Made by a program: the position numbers and the translations under genes. From a virus: a stretch of DNA of 25,579 nucleotides. The stretch's first letter is position 1, and every line of letters begins with the position of its first letter. The stretch covers positions 1 through 25,579 of IMG/VR virus record IMGVR_UViG_3300042881_000777, one strand, 5' to 3'. Under the pieces are notes generated by a model. It did not search any database, was not told the origin of the DNA, and saw only the letters and a program-made list of their open reading frames with translations. Shown here one piece after another: positions 1-7,401 of the stretch.

Positions 1-856
1 TGGCTCCGATTCCGTCTGCAATCAGCTCTGCAATTTCTTGGTGTCCAAGAACTGAAGTCAAGTTACTTGTTAACAGGTTACTTGAATTCATCCTTGTTAA
101 AAGACTTTCTTTAACAACCTGTCTACTAGTACCCTGACTTCTAGTGTTCTCAGCGTTTAGGGACACTCCCGAGTGTCCTATTGGTTGCCTATGTGACTGC
201 TCTTTTTGCGCTTCATTGGACACTGCTGGGTGTCCTATGTGGGATGAGTTATCCACAGGCTGTGAACTGGCTGGCTTTGCCTTTTTGATGGCATTCTTGA
301 TGCTCTTGACTGTCATTGTGTCGGTTGATTTGACCACGATTGGACTCCTCTTTGCTGGTTGTCTGAGTGCTTTGCTGATGGCTTGGGCGACCCTTTGCTG
401 GCCCTCTAAGTCTGCTTTGTCTGCCTGGTCTCGTTGCTCCTTTATGATTAATGGCGGTCTGGTGTCCTCTATGCTGGAGGTGACCGCCATGGCTGTCTCA
501 GCGTCTACTGTTGAGTCGTAGATGATCCGCAGGGTGTTGCACCGCTCGCCCCTGAAACCCTTCTTGAGGATCTCCACATAGCCTGCAGCTCTGAGCCGCA
601 TGAGCTGGTTGGTGATGGCTTGGCGGCTGATGTTGAGGTCTTTGGCCAGCCTGGCTTGGCTCACCCAGGTGATGCCTGCCCGGTTGCAGTAGGAGCACAG
701 CACGCCCAGGGTTCTGATTGAGCCGTCAGTGAGCGCTGGGTCTGTCAGCGCCTTGATGGGCATGACCGAGATCTTGCGCTGGTCTGGCATCGCCTCCTTG
801 AGGTAGATGCGGGGCTTCTTGGCAGGCAGCTTGAACTGGACAATGTTGTCAGGCAT
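1..856 (-). CDS. Winged-helix replication-initiator-like protein (partial, runs off left edge)
   Basis: The reading frame is open from ATG at 856 to the window edge, 285 codons without a stop, so the C-terminus is missing. It begins MPDNIVQFKLPAKK. Residues about 45-100 look like a winged helix-turn-helix: a GITWVSQARLAKDLNISRQA stretch followed by a leucine-rich helix and a wing-like segment. From about residue 130 the chain is polar, low in complexity and rich in Ser, Gln and Lys, as in a flexible linker. This plan, an N-terminal winged helix plus a linker containing DNA repeats, resembles lambda O-type initiators, and the gene carries palindromes and AT-rich DNA at 35-235. The ATG overlaps the methyltransferase stop by 8 nt; a GTG at 865 is an alternative start. 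The DNA-binding domain is well supported. The initiator role is inference; a transcription regulator is the alternative. Confidence 0.65.
   Translation of the reverse strand, partial: MPDNIVQFKLPAKKPRIYLKEAMPDQRKISVMPIKALTDPALTDGSIRTLGVLCSYCNRAGITWVSQARLAKDLNISRQAITNQLMRLRAAGYVEILKKGFRGERCNTLRIIYDSTVDAETAMAVTSSIEDTRPPLIIKEQRDQADKADLEGQQRVAQAISKALRQPAKRSPIVVKSTDTMTVKSIKNAIKKAKPASSQPVDNSSHIGHPAVSNEAQKEQSHRQPIGHSGVSLNAENTRSQGTSRQVVKESLLTRMNSSNLLTSNLTSVLGHQEIAELIADGIGA
35..235. repeat. Cluster of palindromes and short repeats, candidate replication origin
   Basis: Two 18-bp palindromes share the arms GGACAC/GTGTCC. One is at 161-178 (8-bp arms, CC centre), the other at 218-235 (6-bp arms). Both continue into TCCTAT or TCCTAN. 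A third palindrome, TTCTTGG-tgt-CCAAGAA, lies at 35-51 and holds a GTGTCC half-site, and a further GTGTCCT half-site is at 462-468. Between them, 60-150 is AT-rich, with direct repeats of GTTACTTG (62-69, 77-84) and CTTGTTAA (66-73, 93-100) and an inverted repeat TTGTTAA/TTAACAA (94-100, 111-117). All lie inside the initiator-like reading frame. Iterons beside an AT-rich segment inside the initiator gene are the layout of the lambda origin. The repeats are seen directly; the origin function is inferred. Confidence 0.45.
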
Positions 857-1580
857 GGCGCTCACTTAGCAGCCTCCATGCTGTTGCAGCGCAGAGTGGG
901 ACTTGTCCGTTGCCAATGGCTTTAAGTCTGTCCACCCGAGCGGCCATCCCATTCGCATCTCCGAATGCATCGGGTGCGGGTATGTCAACCCGTGTTTTAG
1001 CTTTACATAGTCCCGCCATTGATCGAATCTTAGTTTTCCATTGTCTTGGCGAGCGGCTGTTGTTCCCCCCTTCCAATCTGTCGCCAGCATGGTCGGCAAC
1101 AATCCAGATTCGGTTTCGCTTATGGTCAAATCCTGCAAAGTCAGCTCCCAGCACTCCCCACCTTGCATCAAACCCCATTGCGGCCAAGTCGCCAAGAACT
1201 CGTCCAAGCCCCCGAGTAGTGAGCATTGGTGAGTTCTCCACAAAGACATGGCTGGGTCGAACTTCACGAATGATGCGAGCCATTTCTGTCCACATTCCTG
1301 ATTGCTCTCCATCAATTCCACCCCCCCCCCCTGCGGCTGAGATGTCTTGGCAGGGAAACCCGCCAGATACGACATCAACAATGCCTCGCCACGGCTTGCC
1401 GTCAAAGGTCTGAACATCATCCCAAATCGGGAAAGGCGGGAGAAGACCGTCATTCTGTCGGGCGCACAGTACGCTTGCTGGGTAGGGCTCCCACTCAACG
1501 GCGCAGACTGTTCGCCATCCGAGGAGGTGTCCCCCGATAATTCCTCCACCAGCGCCTGCGAATAAAGCCAGCTCATTCAT
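849..1580 (-). CDS. C5-cytosine DNA methyltransferase (Dcm-like, short)
   Basis: A 243-residue protein with the ordered motifs of C5-cytosine methyltransferases, which transfer a methyl group from S-adenosylmethionine to cytosine in DNA. Motif I is LALFAGAGGG (residues 4-13), motif IV is GGFPCQDIS with catalytic Cys77, motif VI is FVENSP (113-118), motif VIII is HKRNRIWIV (153-161) and motif X is AIGNGQVP (221-228). Only about 60 residues separate motifs VIII and X, so the target-recognition domain is very small or absent; the sequence target cannot be read. The start ATG overlaps the upstream stop (ATGA), and an AGAGG lies about 6 nt before it. No restriction enzyme is adjacent, so a self-protecting or orphan methylase is likely. 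An 11-G run encodes Gly84-88 just after the catalytic loop. Almost the whole gene is shared with a second ORF in another frame. Confidence 0.88.
   Translation of the reverse strand: MNELALFAGAGGGIIGGHLLGWRTVCAVEWEPYPASVLCARQNDGLLPPFPIWDDVQTFDGKPWRGIVDVVSGGFPCQDISAAGGGGGIDGEQSGMWTEMARIIREVRPSHVFVENSPMLTTRGLGRVLGDLAAMGFDARWGVLGADFAGFDHKRNRIWIVADHAGDRLEGGNNSRSPRQWKTKIRSMAGLCKAKTRVDIPAPDAFGDANGMAARVDRLKAIGNGQVPLCAATAWRLLSERHA
866..1576 (-). CDS. Overprinted protein in the +1 frame of the methyltransferase gene
   Basis: A 236-codon frame on the same strand starts 4 nt after the methyltransferase ATG (ATGAATG) and ends in TAA at 866. Its whole length lies inside the methyltransferase gene. It starts MSWLYSQALVEELS, has SRLSRFGM near the end of the first quarter and LMSYLAGFPAKTSQPQ about residue 67, then CSLLGG, TWPQWGLMQGGECWELT and near the C-terminus MGWPLGWTDLKPLATDK. 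From memory, the same phrases recur in many phage and prophage proteins annotated as hypothetical or DNA methyltransferase. Motif X of the enzyme (DRLKAIGNGQVP) and the phrase TDLKPLATDKSH come from the same bases in two frames. Both starts can share one ribosome-binding site. The alternative is that it is only a shadow whose apparent conservation follows from the methyltransferase. No function is known to me. Confidence 0.5.
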   Translation of the reverse strand: MSWLYSQALVEELSGDTSSDGEQSAPLSGSPTQQAYCAPDRMTVFSRLSRFGMMFRPLTASRGEALLMSYLAGFPAKTSQPQGGGVELMESNQECGQKWLASFVKFDPAMSLWRTHQCSLLGGLDEFLATWPQWGLMQGGECWELTLQDLTISETESGLLPTMLATDWKGGTTAARQDNGKLRFDQWRDYVKLKHGLTYPHPMHSEMRMGWPLGWTDLKPLATDKSHSALQQHGGC

Positions 1581-1819
1581 ATACCTCTTTCGGTTTTCTT
1601 GATTTCATGCATGTAGTCGCGCACCCGCTGCTCTGCTCCGGGCCCGTAGCGCTTGTCCATGCTGGCTAGGTGCCGGGTGATCAGCTCCTTGTCTCTGAGC
1701 GCCTCCCATGTAGTCAGCAGCTCCCGTGCGCAGGCCATCAGCATGATGGTCATGTCGGGCTCGATTGGCCCCTTGAACTTTGGATACCATACCTTGAACT
1801 GCCTCTTTAAGAGTTTCAT
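1577..1819 (-). CDS. Hypothetical 80-aa protein upstream of the methyltransferase
   Basis: It begins MKLLKRQFKVWYPKFKGPIE and is predicted to be mostly helical, with a MLMACARELLTTWEALRDKE stretch and a charged C-terminus. I do not recognise a family. The frame is open further upstream to 1894, but the ATG at 1819 is chosen because it overlaps the preceding stop in an ATGA arrangement, as at the other junctions of this operon. Its own stop overlaps the methyltransferase start in the same way. The upstream extension would be out-of-frame translation of the zinc-ribbon gene. Translational coupling to the methyltransferase is likely from this spacing. Confidence 0.65.
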   Translation of the reverse strand: MKLLKRQFKVWYPKFKGPIEPDMTIMLMACARELLTTWEALRDKELITRHLASMDKRYGPGAEQRVRDYMHEIKKTERGI

Positions 1820-1986: not shown

Positions 1987-2227
1987 TGCCCTTGGTCAGT
2001 TGCTCATTGAGCTCCAGCGCCATGCGCCTGACCTGGTCAAGCAGCTCGCGGAGGTCGGCGACCGACTGCATCTCGATCTCAAGCGCGTTCTTGAGCAGCT
2101 CGATCTGGTGGTGCAAGTTGCGAAACTCCCCATTGGCCGATTGGCTATCCCTGACCACCCCGTCATCATCACGGTAAAGCTTGACATAGCTTACATGCAT
2201 GACTTTTTCCATTTCCAATGATTCCAT
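1979..2227 (-). CDS. Hypothetical 82-aa protein with coiled-coil C-terminus
   Basis: The N-terminus contains a HVSYVKLYRDDDG segment, probably a beta strand and turn. The C-terminal half is a heptad-like helix (EFRNLHHQIELLKNALEIE and onward) suggesting a coiled coil. Its stop overlaps the zinc-ribbon start by 8 nt. The start is uncertain: ATGs at 2227, 2212 and 2200 are all in frame, and the first gives a 37-nt overlap with the sigma-like gene. The ATG at 2212 or 2200 would reduce this to 22 or 10 nt. I do not recognise a family. Confidence 0.6.
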   Translation of the reverse strand: MESLEMEKVMHVSYVKLYRDDDGVVRDSQSANGEFRNLHHQIELLKNALEIEMQSVADLRELLDQVRRMALELNEQLTKGND

Positions 2228-2610
2228 GTCATCACTTCGCAGTCCAGCTCGTAAACCGATATGCCGGTAATGCCCATCTGGTATCTGCGCAGCCTGCGCA
2301 TGGCTTGTTTGTAGATCTGGCGCACGCGCTGGCCAGATATAGACAACTGCTGGCCAACCTCTACAAGGGTCAACTCTTCAACAACCAGCAGCCTGATCAC
2401 AATCTCCTGCCGCTCGGTCAGTGGCGCGTCTATCAGGATCTTGGTCAACAGCTCCCGGCACTCAACCTGGTCTAGGTTGTCTTCATGCTGCCATGACCAA
2501 CCCTGCCTCGGCAGCTCTGGCAGCTCCTCATGACGGGTATGCCAAATTGTTCTGACCTCACTCGGGATCGCTGCAATTTGCAGCTCGCCGTAAACAGGTG
2601 CGCGGCTCAT
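2191..2610 (-). CDS. Sigma-70 region 4-like transcription regulator (139 aa)
   Basis: Residues about 62-110 read as a sigma region 4 helix-turn-helix: an APLTERQEIVIRLLVVEELT segment, then VEVGQQLSISGQRVRQIYKQ and a basic MRRLRR tail. In sigma factors this domain contacts the -35 element and the RNA polymerase flap. Regions 2 and 3 are absent, so it cannot melt a promoter like a full sigma factor. It may instead be an activator, an appropriator of host polymerase or a late-gene switch. The start at 2610 is chosen because it overlaps the preceding stop (ATGA) and has GAGG just upstream; the frame itself is open to 2760. The N-terminal 60 residues are not recognised. The domain call is firm; the regulatory role is inference. 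Confidence 0.72.
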   Translation of the reverse strand: MSRAPVYGELQIAAIPSEVRTIWHTRHEELPELPRQGWSWQHEDNLDQVECRELLTKILIDAPLTERQEIVIRLLVVEELTLVEVGQQLSISGQRVRQIYKQAMRRLRRYQMGITGISVYELDCEVMTWNHWKWKKSCM

Positions 2611-2705
2611 TTGACCTCGCACAGCTTGATCAGGCAGTAAATGGCCAGCAATGTCAGGCCCGAGCCCAGGCTGACCAGCACAAAGAAGGTGAGAATGGTT
2701 GTCAT
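2607..2705 (-). CDS. 32-aa single-span membrane peptide
   Basis: The frame encodes a peptide that is almost entirely hydrophobic: MTTILTFFVLVSLGSGLTLL, then AIYCLIKLCEVK. This is one membrane helix with a short charged C-terminal end. It overlaps the resolvase stop and the sigma-like start by 4 nt each, so all three are probably translationally coupled. Its place in an early operon rather than the lysis block argues against a holin. It could be a small membrane modulator of the host or a superinfection factor, but nothing in the sequence decides this. Confidence 0.6.
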   Translation of the reverse strand: MTTILTFFVLVSLGSGLTLLAIYCLIKLCEVK

Positions 2706-3166
2706 GCGTGTTGCTCCAAGCTCCAATGCAGGATCGCCAAAGCGTCTGCCTCGTTGTCATCAGTTACCGGGTGGCCCTTGGCCTGCATGGCCTTGACCAT
2801 CTCATCCTTGCCAGCGTTGCCCTTGCCCGTGGCGTGCTTTTTGATCGTGCCAACCGGCACGCCTTGGTACGGGATCTTGTGGTGCTCGCACCAGGCTGTC
2901 AGGGTGGCCAGCAAGCCGCCGTAGACATGCGCTGAGTCGGTGCTGGCATGCCGCCTGACCTCCTCAAAATACACAGCGTGGAGCTCACCGCCCAGCGTGC
3001 CCTTGAGCTCGGTCAGCCACTGCTTGAACCGCAAGTAGCGCATGCCGCCACCCTCATAGCGGCCAGGCTTAAAGCTCGACCACCCATGCACGACAGGGCC
3101 GGTCATCTGCCTGCATGCCCAGCCGGTGGTGGTGCCCAGGTCAAGGGCAAGGATGGTCTCGCTCAT
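2702..3166 (-). CDS. RuvC-like Holliday junction resolvase
   Basis: A 154-residue RNase H-fold nuclease of the RuvC type. The first acidic residue is Asp9 in ILALDLGTTTGWA, the second is Glu68/69 in VYFEEVRRH, a conserved-type lysine is in GTIKKHATGKG (about 109-115), and the C-terminal acids are in TDDNEADALAI (136-141), giving the D-E-D-D-like metal site. Length matches bacterial and phage RuvC proteins. Such enzymes cut four-way DNA junctions symmetrically. In a phage this could resolve recombination intermediates made by the exonuclease and RecT pair encoded on the other strand, or debranch DNA before packaging. It is tightly coupled to its neighbours by ATGA overlaps at both ends. Confidence 0.85.
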   Translation of the reverse strand: MSETILALDLGTTTGWACRQMTGPVVHGWSSFKPGRYEGGGMRYLRFKQWLTELKGTLGGELHAVYFEEVRRHASTDSAHVYGGLLATLTAWCEHHKIPYQGVPVGTIKKHATGKGNAGKDEMVKAMQAKGHPVTDDNEADALAILHWSLEQHA

Positions 3167-3339
3167 AGCGCACCAGACTGCCGCAATGCCTCAACAAACT
3201 CTTCCATCTCGGAGCATGGGATCTGGGTGGCATGGTCGGCATCACCGCACATGGCCAGCGCCTCAACAATGACAGGTGTCGGGTACTCCACGCCATCCTT
3301 GGACATGTCCAGGATGCGCACTGCGTCTGCGTGGGTCAT
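3163..3339 (-). CDS. Hypothetical 58-aa acidic protein
   Basis: The chain begins MTHADAVRILDMSKDGVEYP and is predicted mainly helical and acidic, with two Cys residues near the middle and C-terminal half. The ATG at 3339 overlaps the stop of the ribbon-helix-helix gene (ATGA), and its own stop overlaps the resolvase start. The open frame upstream of 3339 is the alternative frame of the neighbouring gene and is not used. Small proteins with a similar opening occur in phage early regions as I recall, without an assigned function. Confidence 0.65.
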   Translation of the reverse strand: MTHADAVRILDMSKDGVEYPTPVIVEALAMCGDADHATQIPCSEMEEFVEALRQSGAL

Positions 3340-3896: not shown

Positions 3897-4568
3897 ATGA
3901 CACCCAACACCAGCAAATTCGTCGCCTACTACCGCGTTTCAACCGACCGCCAGGGCCAATCTGGCCTTGGCCTCGATGCCCAGCGTGCAGCCGTGGCCAA
4001 GCACATCGGCGCTGCCGAGCTGGTTGCCGAGTTCACCGAGGTCGAGTCTGGCCGCAAGAATGACCGCGAGCAGCTCGCTGCCGCCATGGCCACCGCCAAG
4101 AAGGCCAAGGCCATGCTGGTGATCGCCAAGCTGGATCGCCTGGCTCGCAATGTTCACTTCATCTCTGGCCTGCTTGAGTCTGGCGTGCCCTTTGTCTGCG
4201 CCGACATGCCCGAGGCTGACCGCACCTTCTTGCAGATGATGGCCGTGTTCGCTGAGTGGGAGGCACGCAAAATCTCCGAGCGCACCAAGTCAGCGCTGGC
4301 CCAAGTCAAGGCCAAGGGCCGCACGCTGGGATGCCCGACACCTGAGATTGGCTCGGCCATCGGCGTGCAAGTGATCAAGGTCAAAGCCGACAAGTACGCT
4401 GACCGTGTTGGCCCAATCGTGCGCGACATCATCGCCCGGTCTGGTGCCAGCACCCTGAGAGACATTGCCGCAGCCCTTGAGGCTCGCGGTGTAGCCACGC
4501 CCCGTGGCAATGTGACCTGGGGGCCAACACAGGCCTCCAACCTTCTGAAACGCCTCAACCTCAACTAA
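3897..4568 (+). CDS. Serine recombinase (resolvase/invertase family)
   Basis: The 223-residue protein has the resolvase fold. FVAYYRVSTDRQGQSGLGLD carries the nucleophile Ser15 and Arg18, KLDRLARN (78-85) holds the catalytic arginines 81 and 84, and the long E helix runs through MMAVFAEWEARKISERTKSA. Residues about 183-223 form a small DNA-binding end (STLRDIAAALEARGV, TPRG, WGPTQASNLLKRL). The size is that of small resolvases and invertases, not of the 450-600-aa large serine integrases of temperate phages. It may resolve genome multimers, invert a segment or act as a small integrase. No pair of invertible sites was found in the window. It follows the small acidic gene closely and precedes a 44-aa membrane peptide, apparently in one operon. 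Confidence 0.9.
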   Translation: MTPNTSKFVAYYRVSTDRQGQSGLGLDAQRAAVAKHIGAAELVAEFTEVESGRKNDREQLAAAMATAKKAKAMLVIAKLDRLARNVHFISGLLESGVPFVCADMPEADRTFLQMMAVFAEWEARKISERTKSALAQVKAKGRTLGCPTPEIGSAIGVQVIKVKADKYADRVGPIVRDIIARSGASTLRDIAAALEARGVATPRGNVTWGPTQASNLLKRLNLN

Positions 4569-5211: not shown

Positions 5212-6171
5212 ATGGCAGGCAAATTAACAGATGACAAACAAATGAGCGCCAGCCGGTTGCCCGGCTTGCTCGGGTTCAGCCGGTACAGCACCCCGAATGA
5301 TGAGCTGCAATACAGCATCAATGCCATCGATGGCAAGGAGCGGCCAGACATTGGCAATGAGGCCATGGGCTGGGGCAATACGCTTGAGCCGGTGATCTTG
5401 CAGCAAGCAGCCATGCGGCTGGGCATCACCGACTACGACACCCAGATTGGCCAGGCCTACACGCACAGCAGCATTCCGCTGTCGTGCAGCCTGGATGGCG
5501 TTGGCCACGGCACCGGGCAGGAGATCTTTCCAGACCCAGACAAAGGGATCTTTGTGGTTGGCCAAGACTCAATCGTGCTTGACGGGCCCGGCGTGCTGGA
5601 GGCAAAGCTGACCAAGACCATGCCCGAGGAAGTGCCGCACCTGGCGCGTGGCCCGATTCAGTTACAAGGCCAGATGCTGGTGACGGGGCACAAGTGGGGC
5701 GCTGTTGCCGTGCTGTATCAGGGCATCGAGCTGCGCGTGTTCCTGTTCGCACCGCACTACGACACCCAGAAAGAGATCGTCAAGGCGGTGCTGGCCTTTG
5801 AGCAAAAGCTAAAAACCTACCAAAAAACTGGAGCCATAGATTGGTACCCGCCAGAGAGCAGCAAAGAGCTCGACCGGATCTACCCCATGGCCGCTGACAG
5901 GGAAGAGATCCAACTGCCTCCCAGCGTAGGCGACCTGGCCAAGGGCATCATTGAGAACAAGGCCGCGATCCGCGCAGCCGAGGCCAGCATTGATGAGGCT
6001 GAGAAACTGATCAAGCAGGAGCTTGGCCAAGCCGAGCGTGGCCGGGCTGGCCAGTACATCATCAACTGGCCAATGCGCAATTACAAGGATGCGCCCGAGC
6101 GGCTGGTGCCAGCCAAGAAGGCGTACAGCGTGCGCCAATCAACCCTGTCAATCAAGGAATGGCAGACATGA
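5212..6171 (+). CDS. YqaJ/lambda-exonuclease-type recombination nuclease
   Basis: A 319-residue PD-(D/E)XK nuclease of the phage recombination type. Residues 1-25 (SASRLPGLLGFSRYSTP) match the usual opening of YqaJ-like proteins. GNTLEP has Glu59, SCSLDG has Asp95, VLEAKLT has Glu130 and Lys132, and QLQGQM (150-154) is the Gln motif after the catalytic core. Such enzymes degrade one DNA strand from ends to give 3' single-stranded tails. The C-terminal 80 residues hold a predicted helix pair (IIENKAAIRAAEASIDEAEK) before the end. RecT lies two genes downstream, so the two probably act as a Red-like exonuclease and annealase pair. The stop overlaps the next ATG. Confidence 0.85.
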   Translation: MAGKLTDDKQMSASRLPGLLGFSRYSTPNDELQYSINAIDGKERPDIGNEAMGWGNTLEPVILQQAAMRLGITDYDTQIGQAYTHSSIPLSCSLDGVGHGTGQEIFPDPDKGIFVVGQDSIVLDGPGVLEAKLTKTMPEEVPHLARGPIQLQGQMLVTGHKWGAVAVLYQGIELRVFLFAPHYDTQKEIVKAVLAFEQKLKTYQKTGAIDWYPPESSKELDRIYPMAADREEIQLPPSVGDLAKGIIENKAAIRAAEASIDEAEKLIKQELGQAERGRAGQYIINWPMRNYKDAPERLVPAKKAYSVRQSTLSIKEWQT

Positions 6172-6347
6172 ACCTACCCGACAAGCCAGCCATCTGGCAT
6201 GCCTATGAGAAGGCTGTTGTGGCCATGCTTGATGCAACCGACTGCACTGAAGATGAGGCCGAGGCCTTTGTCGATGCCATGACAAACCTAATTTTTACCA
6301 CCATGAAAACCTACTTGAAAGAAACAAATGCAACTGACAACCACTAA
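6168..6347 (+). CDS. Small acidic protein between exonuclease and RecT (59 aa)
   Basis: The ATG at 6168 overlaps the exonuclease stop; another ATG at 6159 is also in frame. The chain begins MNLPDKPAIWHAYEKAVVAM and is acidic and helical, with TEDEAEAFVDAMTN in the middle. The last 20 nt overlap the start of recT, so its translation should feed recT. No family is recognised. Small genes in this slot of phage recombination operons can modulate host nucleases, but no sequence evidence shows that here. Confidence 0.6.
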   Translation: MNLPDKPAIWHAYEKAVVAMLDATDCTEDEAEAFVDAMTNLIFTTMKTYLKETNATDNH

Positions 6348-7401
6348 CAGGGGCTTTGCCCCCACCACCCTCACCGAGGCCATGACCTTCTCAGACATGC
6401 TGGCCAACTCCAGCATGGTGCCCCGTGCCTACCAGGGCAAGCCTCAAGACATCCTGGTCTGTGTCCAGTGGGGCATGGAGATGGGGCTGGCACCCATGCA
6501 AGCACTCCAGAATATCGCTGTCATCAATGGCAAGCCCTCGGTCTATGGTGACGCACTCATGGCGCTGGTGCAGGCCAGCCCTGTCTGTGAGGATATTGAG
6601 GAGTTCTTTGAGGGTGAGGGCACGCCCAACCCGGTGGCCGTCTGCGTGGCCAAGCGCAAGGGTCGCACGCCAGTGACCGCCAAGTTCTCAGTGGAGGATG
6701 CCAAGCGTGCTGGCCTGTGGGCCAAGCAGGGGCCATGGACGGCATACCCAAAACGCATGATGCAAATGCGAGCTCGCGGCTTTGCGCTCAGGGATGCCTT
6801 TCCTGATGTGCTCAAGGGCATGATCACCGCCGAGGAGGCGCAGGACTATCAGGAAGAAACCAAACCCCGACAGGTGGCTAAACCGGCTAATCCGCTGGAC
6901 ATGATCGCGCCAACACCCATGATTGAGCAGACCAGCAACCCGGCGGTGATCGAGTCAGTGTTTGCCCACGATCAGGAGGCCGACACGGTCAATGAGCTGG
7001 TCGCCCAGGCCAAGGCTGACAGTGGTGAATCAGACTTTGTGCTCAAGGCACTCAGCGAGGCCAGCGCTTTTGCAGACAAAATGGTTGAGCGCTTTGAAGT
7101 GTTGAACATCCCCGAGGTGACCGAGCAGGCACCCACAGGCGAGCTGTTTGCTGTCCTGCTGCCCGGCAAGGACAAGCCGCACTCAATGCACGGCACGCTG
7201 GAAGAGTGGCAGGATGCCTATGAGGCGGTTGCTGAGAAGACTGCCATGGCCACCAAGGTGCCAGCGCGGGAGCGTATGACCAAGCTGCGTGAGCTGCGTG
7301 AGCTCAATGAGCCCACCATCGGCAAGGTTGAGATGATCGCTCGCATCAGGCATACCGCTGCCTACAGCAAGCGGCTGGGTGCGCTGGGTGCAGCTCAGTA
7401 A
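6328..7401 (+). CDS. recT: RecT-family single-strand annealing protein
   Basis: The 357-residue protein has the RecT core: FSDMLANSSMVPRAYQGKPQ, then the typical VQWGMEMGLAPMQALQNIAV and INGKPSVYGDALMALV, then KFSVEDAKRAGLWAKQGPWT and YPKRMMQMRARGFALRDAFP followed by DVLKGMITAEEAQD. RecT proteins coat single-stranded DNA and pair it with a complementary strand. The first 190 residues carry the domain. The rest is variable and acidic, as is common, and ends in a basic helix. The partner nuclease is just upstream, and the pair could repair, recombine or circularise the genome. It is the last gene of the rightward operon. Confidence 0.9.
   Translation: MQLTTTNRGFAPTTLTEAMTFSDMLANSSMVPRAYQGKPQDILVCVQWGMEMGLAPMQALQNIAVINGKPSVYGDALMALVQASPVCEDIEEFFEGEGTPNPVAVCVAKRKGRTPVTAKFSVEDAKRAGLWAKQGPWTAYPKRMMQMRARGFALRDAFPDVLKGMITAEEAQDYQEETKPRQVAKPANPLDMIAPTPMIEQTSNPAVIESVFAHDQEADTVNELVAQAKADSGESDFVLKALSEASAFADKMVERFEVLNIPEVTEQAPTGELFAVLLPGKDKPHSMHGTLEEWQDAYEAVAEKTAMATKVPARERMTKLRELRELNEPTIGKVEMIARIRHTAAYSKRLGALGAAQ

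Follow-up and report, generated by a model that had tools for sequence, protein, structure and literature searches.

Organization of the locus

The stretch of DNA studied here (hereafter the window) is a virus record of 25,579 bases from IMG/VR. On one strand, two open reading frames start 4 nt apart, within an ATGAATG sequence, and overlap almost entirely (Table 1). The first frame, alpha, encodes the catalytic part of a C5-cytosine DNA methyltransferase (MTase). The second one, beta, is read in the +1 frame, and about 97% of the gene is double-coded. The original prediction, made from the letters of the sequence alone, had placed two frames of 243 and 236 codons at these positions; coordinates and translation bear it out, and the +1 readings that it quoted are right, FAGAGGG giving SQALVEE and DRLKAIGNGQVP giving TDLKPLATDK. 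Among the neighbours, the genes at 2191-2760 (-), 3897-4568 (+) and 5212-7401 (+) correspond to a sigma-70 region 4 protein, a serine resolvase, and a YqaJ-like recombinase with RecT.

Table 1. Features of the alpha/beta locus, in window coordinates.
Feature	Position	Strand	Basis or remark
alpha, C5-cytosine methyltransferase catalytic (large) domain, 243 aa	849..1580	-	PF00145 and motifs
beta, 236 aa, read in +1; target-recognition region and motif IX inferred	866..1576	-	stop depletion, fourfold-site suppression, conserved ATG, selection hand-over, motif IX match
AAAGAGG, Shine-Dalgarno-like	1584..1590	-	3 nt before alpha ATG, 7 nt before beta ATG
alpha motif I (FAGAGGG)	1542..1562	-	
alpha motif IV (PCQDIS, catalytic Cys77)	1338..1355	-	
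G11 homopolymer on the coding strand, just 3' of motif IV; putative phase-variation tract, both frames	1321..1331	-	
alpha motif VIII (RNR)	1110..1118	-	
variable region, motif VIII to motif X; target-recognition region inferred in beta	969..1091	-	beta frame more conserved than alpha
beta motif IX-like segment YPHPMHSEMRMGWPLGWT (family consensus LNPxWVEWLMGWPxGWT)	929..982	-	hhalign
alpha motif X (LKAIGNGQVP)	897..926	-	alpha constraint back here

The Alpha Frame

Alpha belongs to the C5-cytosine MTases: it matches PF00145 (E 8e-27; 94.9 bits for a cut-off of 22; residues 4-180) and possesses motifs I, IV, VI, VIII, and X. In 85 homologues, its catalytic and SAM motifs are invariant or nearly so. 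A single-chain enzyme of this class carries the target-recognition region (TRD) and motif IX on the same chain, and alpha does not fulfil this criterion. No motif IX is recognisable in alpha, the alignment with M.HhaI and M.HaeIII covers motifs I-VIII only, and the Pfam, PDB, and canonical profiles all end near residue 180. Across the family, the length of alpha between motifs VIII and X ranges from 55 to 164 aa.

The +1 Frame Is a Conserved Coding Frame

The beta frame was studied in 75 unique homologues that had been fetched via the MTase frame alone, so that the sampling cannot favour an open beta frame. A larger set of 123 unique viral homologues combines these MTase-fetched loci with beta-fetched ones. 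The loci and pairs are mostly metagenomic and one contig may carry two locus numbers; exact duplicates were removed from the counts. Numbers of expected stops were derived from synonymous-codon shuffling, which assumes that codon choice is independent of position. The beta frame is open in 74 of the 75 MTase-fetched loci for 0.2 expected, with a single stop for 353 expected, and the whole set of 123 loci contains 2 stops for 589 expected. For a gene identical to that of the window (locus L001), none of 300 synonymous shuffles kept the beta frame stop-free. As a control, 19 canonical MTases were treated in the same manner, and no depletion of +1 stops was observed (328 versus 335 expected).

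The signals for a separate start of beta are also conserved. The beta ATG is present in 121 of 123 loci, including those where residue 1 of the MTase corresponds to a non-start codon. This ATG is supplied by the codon of Asn2, which is AAT in all 104 genes having Asn at this position (104/104), as compared to 43% AAT among the Asn codons elsewhere in the same genes. A Shine-Dalgarno (SD)-like site is found in 92 of 107 homologues, mostly 7-12 nt 5' of the beta ATG. Moreover, divergence at the fourfold sites of the MTase frame is only 0.293, versus a weighted value of 0.56 in control gene clusters taken from the same contigs and showing similar protein divergence. This suppression is seen all along the gene, codons 61-95 being the least affected. 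The few exceptions go in both directions: two viral loci (L006 and L122) have a stop in beta with an intact alpha, and in two bacterial loci alpha is interrupted by a stop (at about 1937 in L187 and about 1810 in L192) with beta open throughout.

Beta is a conserved protein-coding frame, not an annotation error. Stop depletion, fourfold-site suppression, and codon choice at the beta ATG all support real overprinting, which was one of the two options left by the original prediction. The outcome that would have refuted it, namely stops arising freely in the second frame and no constraint other than that of the MTase frame, was tested for and was not found.

Selection Passes From One Frame to the Other

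The codon position at which changes occur (position 1 versus position 3 of the MTase codons) was counted along the gene for 32 disjoint pairs of closely related sequences, the pattern having been anticipated before the count. Over codons 1-160, changes are chiefly located at MTase position 3, and sequence identity amounts to 0.91-0.96 for alpha and 0.67-0.86 for beta. From motif VIII to motif X, changes occur at MTase position 1, which is the third position of beta; identity is 0.761 for alpha and 0.902 for beta, and changes at position 1 outnumber those at position 3 in 29 of 29 non-tied pairs. Over the last ten codons 5' of the shared IX/X stretch, the corresponding identities are 0.834 and 0.934. 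At motif X, the alpha frame dominates again. Hence, constraint lies first on alpha (motifs I-VIII), then on beta (TRD and motif IX), and finally on alpha (motif X). This hand-over is the division of a C5-MTase into large and small domains, as in M.HhaI, where motifs I-VIII are followed by the TRD and motif IX, and then by motif X (PMC3404938).

Beta itself matches no Pfam or NCBIfam family, and PDB sequence searches gave nothing meaningful. It is related to phrog_1008, labelled DNA methyltransferase (E 1.3e-16), a family also matched by 85 of the 85 beta relatives tested. When the C-terminus of beta was compared with 47 canonical MTases using hhalign, the single best local match was motif IX, with 26.2 bits versus 20.8 for the best of 28 decoy families and 20.7 for the best of 60 column shuffles. 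LNPxWVEWLMGWPxGWT in beta is thereby aligned with rLTPREcARLmGFPDxF in the canonical enzymes. It should be noted that this match extends over only 18 columns (E 0.004, HHalign probability 8%). With a motif-IX weight matrix built on six canonical MTases, the signal was too weak to be significant, and the profile-profile comparison was used instead. The same segment is found in the MTase frame of two actinobacterial single-chain MTases, L314 and L317 (RLMPEFVEWMMGLPAGWT and RLNAAFAEWLMFWPAGWV, respectively), right before motif X, the place that it has in canonical enzymes.

In these two loci from Actinomycetota, a long +1 ORF still lies over motifs VI-VIII and has the N-terminal half of beta (e.g., FYDPESSSLRTSQ...LLPTPTA). 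This ORF is not explained by a simple small-domain picture. Residues 1-95 of beta have no counterpart in known MTases, and the N-terminal half cannot be called a small domain. AlphaFold2 models of beta alone are of low confidence (pLDDT 54 and 57, with 85 and 103 homologues, respectively). Such poor models could be compatible with a protein that folds only on alpha; they are no evidence for it.

A Homopolymeric Tract Common to Both Frames

The G11 tract, which the original prediction had not mentioned, is the sole G/C run of at least 8 nucleotides in the window. Run length at this site is bimodal in the 123 homologues, with 2-5 nucleotides in 112 of them and 10-12 in 11. Additional alleles were collected by a pattern scan in which the downstream frame was unconstrained. 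The downstream MTase frame is off-phase in 32 of 105 alleles with 8 G or more at this site, versus 1 of 171 with shorter runs (Fisher p 3e-14). Tract-bearing viral homologues have 9 to 17 G at the same site and are often out of phase; the off-phase alleles, when read out, give a full-length open chimera made of the N-half of alpha and the C-half of beta, or the reverse. The gene thus has the simple-sequence tract with frame-changing length variants expected of a phase-variable gene, and the simplest reading suggested by these data is phase variation of both subunits at once.

Homopolymer assembly error is, however, not fully excluded. The contigs are metagenome assemblies, in which long G runs are error-prone, and there remains some chance, clearly the smaller one, that variation in tract length arises from sequencing or assembly; this would concern the G tract only and not the reality of beta. 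Against it, G/C runs of at least 9 are otherwise rare, with 16 in the 1.9 Mb of these contigs, yet the tract occurs here in 5 of 75 loci that were not picked for it, and the bimodal length distribution is that of loci not fetched by the tract. In addition, the near-identical pairs L392/L404 and L363/L444 differ by one G and in phase.

In a Gallionella MAG (L199), the alpha and beta frames trade places at a G9 run (about 3240-3260) that occupies the same site. This is the only off-phase copy seen in a bacterial genome. Its description as a locus with a broken MTase and an intact beta was dropped in favour of a frame swap at the G tract.

Distribution and Annotation of the Pair

Genomes of bacteria, proteobacteria for the most part, contain the alpha/beta pair, and so do phages of Pseudomonas, Salmonella, Klebsiella, Acinetobacter, Vibrio, Microcystis, Stenotrophomonas, and other hosts. 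The beta profile has matches in 28 of 398 genomes from the phylum of a Citrobacter genome, in 10 of 296 from that of an Acidimicrobiales genome, and in 20 of 195 from that of a Verrucomicrobiota genome. Nearly all these matches are in the +1 register over an MTase, and some weak ones are MTase shadows. The +1 score with the beta profile reaches 181 bits for a Bacteroides plasmid (L223), versus 70 +/- 11 in synonymous shuffles, and 52 bits for a distant locus (L257), versus 7.5 +/- 7; for most canonical MTases, it is not far above the shuffles. Recurrence in phages and in bacteria of several phyla argues that the extra frame is a real gene and not an annotation error. In more distant relatives, beta starts inside the gene and occupies its C-terminal two-thirds (177-232 aa in the first ones examined), and these nested betas often have an ATG and an SD-like site. 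Because distant betas begin inside the gene, it can be inferred that the whole-gene overlap seen in the window probably arose when an older nested gene was extended upstream.

The widespread family of phage proteins referred to in the original prediction does exist, as phrog_1008 and as annotated hypothetical proteins. It looks unexplained because gene callers usually keep only one frame, sometimes alpha and sometimes beta. For instance, alpha is called DNA methylase in Vibrio phage 1.003.O, and beta is called hypothetical protein in its relative 1.236.O. Beta-frame gene calls are also found in Pseudomonas phage phPA-G and Microcystis phage Mwe-JY08. Of the other option then considered, that of a long-lived annotation artefact, only one part stands: the frame is real, but a problem of annotation exists.

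Individual records illustrate the diversity of the gene calls. CDSs in the beta frame are labelled hypothetical at L210 1501-2229, L215 1501-2199, and L219 392-652, while in related phages the annotation follows alpha. The MTase of Mycobacterium phage Llama is annotated as two genes, 74 and 75 (L344 1432-2191), with a frameshift inside the double-coded region; that of a relative, Spikelee gp77, is not so split.

A Probable Two-Subunit Methyltransferase Encoded by Overlapping Frames

It is very probable that one stretch of DNA encodes here a two-subunit C5-cytosine DNA MTase of the M.EcoHK31I kind, activity and complex formation being inferred. Alpha, in frame 0, would be the large catalytic domain, with SAM binding, the catalytic Cys, motif VIII, and motif X. 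Beta, in the +1 frame, would be the small domain and would contribute the variable target-recognition region and motif IX. Beta would be started at its own ATG, 4 nt downstream of that of alpha, with an SD region common to both. The two chains would thus be translated separately from one mRNA, via two adjacent starts, and would then assemble. The assembled enzyme probably would modify the DNA of the phage itself against host restriction; self-protection is inferred to be the likely role because no restriction gene adjoining the locus was recognised among the window neighbours scanned. A less certain step is that one slip in the 11-G tract would probably inactivate both subunits together, or re-pair them. 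That the chains are translated separately and assemble, that methylation depends on beta, the target, and the biological role are all inferred. A broader proposal is that two MTase domains are distributed over two frames, kept across bacterial phyla and phages, and that in some aquatic phages one poly-G tract switches both subunits and exchanges halves; taken as a whole, it is evenly balanced between being right and being wrong.

The original prediction had mentioned that beta might be a partner or a modulator of the methylase. The partner option is supported and can be sharpened, as beta behaves as the missing small domain (TRD and motif IX) of the same enzyme. It is improbable, though it cannot be dismissed, that beta is instead a modulator or an unrelated protein (an inhibitor or an anti-restriction protein), with alpha as a complete minimal enzyme. 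The variable gap between motifs VIII and X could house a small recognition segment in some alphas, and the 95 N-terminal residues of beta are unlike anything in known MTases. However, alpha is the less conserved frame within this very gap, and the match to canonical motif IX, together with its in-frame copies in L314 and L317, points to small-domain sequence in beta. Production of a fused chain by programmed frameshifting or transcriptional slippage, for example at the G tract, with no separate chains, seems very unlikely. The 105 collected alleles do have their run of at least 8 G at a fixed site, and off-phase alleles do retain a full-length open chimera, but merely 5 of 75 MTase-selected alleles have the tract, beta has its own conserved ATG and SD spacing, and many nested betas have an ATG and an SD site. 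Finally, the idea that openness and conservation of beta are merely the shadow of conserved MTase codons is scarcely tenable: shuffled near relatives still retain about 40-50% of the bits scored with the beta profile, and weak +1 matches to this profile occur in a few canonical MTases, but 2 stops for 589 expected, suppressed fourfold sites, the invariant AAT at the start, and a recognition region more conserved in the beta frame than in the alpha frame all oppose it.

Near full-length overlaps on the same strand with selection in both frames have rarely been documented in bacteria and dsDNA phages. In the present case, the selective load shifts between frames at the point where the domains of a structurally known enzyme meet, which makes the two-subunit proposal directly testable. 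Reading the gene in two frames accounts for recurring hypothetical proteins of phages and prophages, and provides an annotation rule for a class of MTases usually called in one frame only. The G tract suggests a switch in which two subunits are flipped by one slip. The pair also points to natural split methyltransferases having a separate recognition subunit.

Comparison With Known Systems

A literature search retrieved EcoHK31I and ShiLan, and no report of the alpha/beta family as overprinted. In the ShiLan-type element, as in the window, a second frame is read within a phage methylase gene; there, it corresponds to an out-of-frame HNH endonuclease, a mobile insertion (PMC11855218). Unlike this element, beta is not an insertion, its frame crosses the conserved MTase body, and no HNH family match was obtained with beta and its 85 relatives.

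The profile of phrog_1008 (329 positions) matches beta and, further along, the C-terminus of single-chain MTases. As inferred from the matches of L314 and L317, it appears to add a motif X-like end that is absent from the window beta. In Paenibacillus phage Lily, the only record examined in which both frames are annotated, gp63 (164 aa; L343 1474-1965) is a +1 "g62 internal gene" whose product is given as DNA methyltransferase. This protein ends with PNYCELIMGFPIKWTDL and, in contrast to the window beta, is nested in the C-terminal two-thirds only. No function test of Lily gp62/gp63 was found.

In M.AquI, the catalytic domain and the recognition/motif IX part are on separate chains; motif X is on the smaller chain as well, and each chain holds part of the variable region (PMC3404938). 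The window resembles this enzyme in having its catalytic and recognition/motif IX parts on two chains, but beta, unlike the smaller chain of M.AquI, has no motif X. M.AquI is not known to have a whole-gene overlap of frames.

In M.EcoHK31I (YGGCCR), beta (176 aa) is said, from work by Lee and colleagues in 1995, to be encoded in an alternative frame inside the gene of alpha (309 aa), and both polypeptides are reportedly needed in vitro. Likewise, the second subunit of the window comes from an alternative frame of the alpha gene, and the nested layout itself is found in distant relatives of the window (177-232 aa ORFs). In M.EcoHK31I, motif IX is present solely in the smaller polypeptide, the large one having motifs I-VIII and X (PMC3404938). 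The window shows the same partition: alpha carries motifs I-VIII and X but not IX, and motif IX is assigned to beta by a match that is short, stands above decoys, and has in-frame copies in L314 and L317. When plasmids and E. coli were searched for a locus resembling that of EcoHK31I, no restriction-modification pair was found. The two systems differ in several respects. The TRD of EcoHK31I is predicted to be in the large subunit and not in the small one (PMC3404938), whereas that of the window is placed in beta by selection. The window beta has its start only 4 nt downstream of that of alpha and spans about 97% of the gene, and the pair is phage-borne, with no restriction enzyme recognised nearby. 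A split MTase with its second chain in another frame is therefore already known from EcoHK31I, and Lily gp63 is a precedent in phage annotation; what is new is the overlap of nearly the whole gene, its breadth across phyla, the recognition region assigned to beta by selection, and the poly-G tract.
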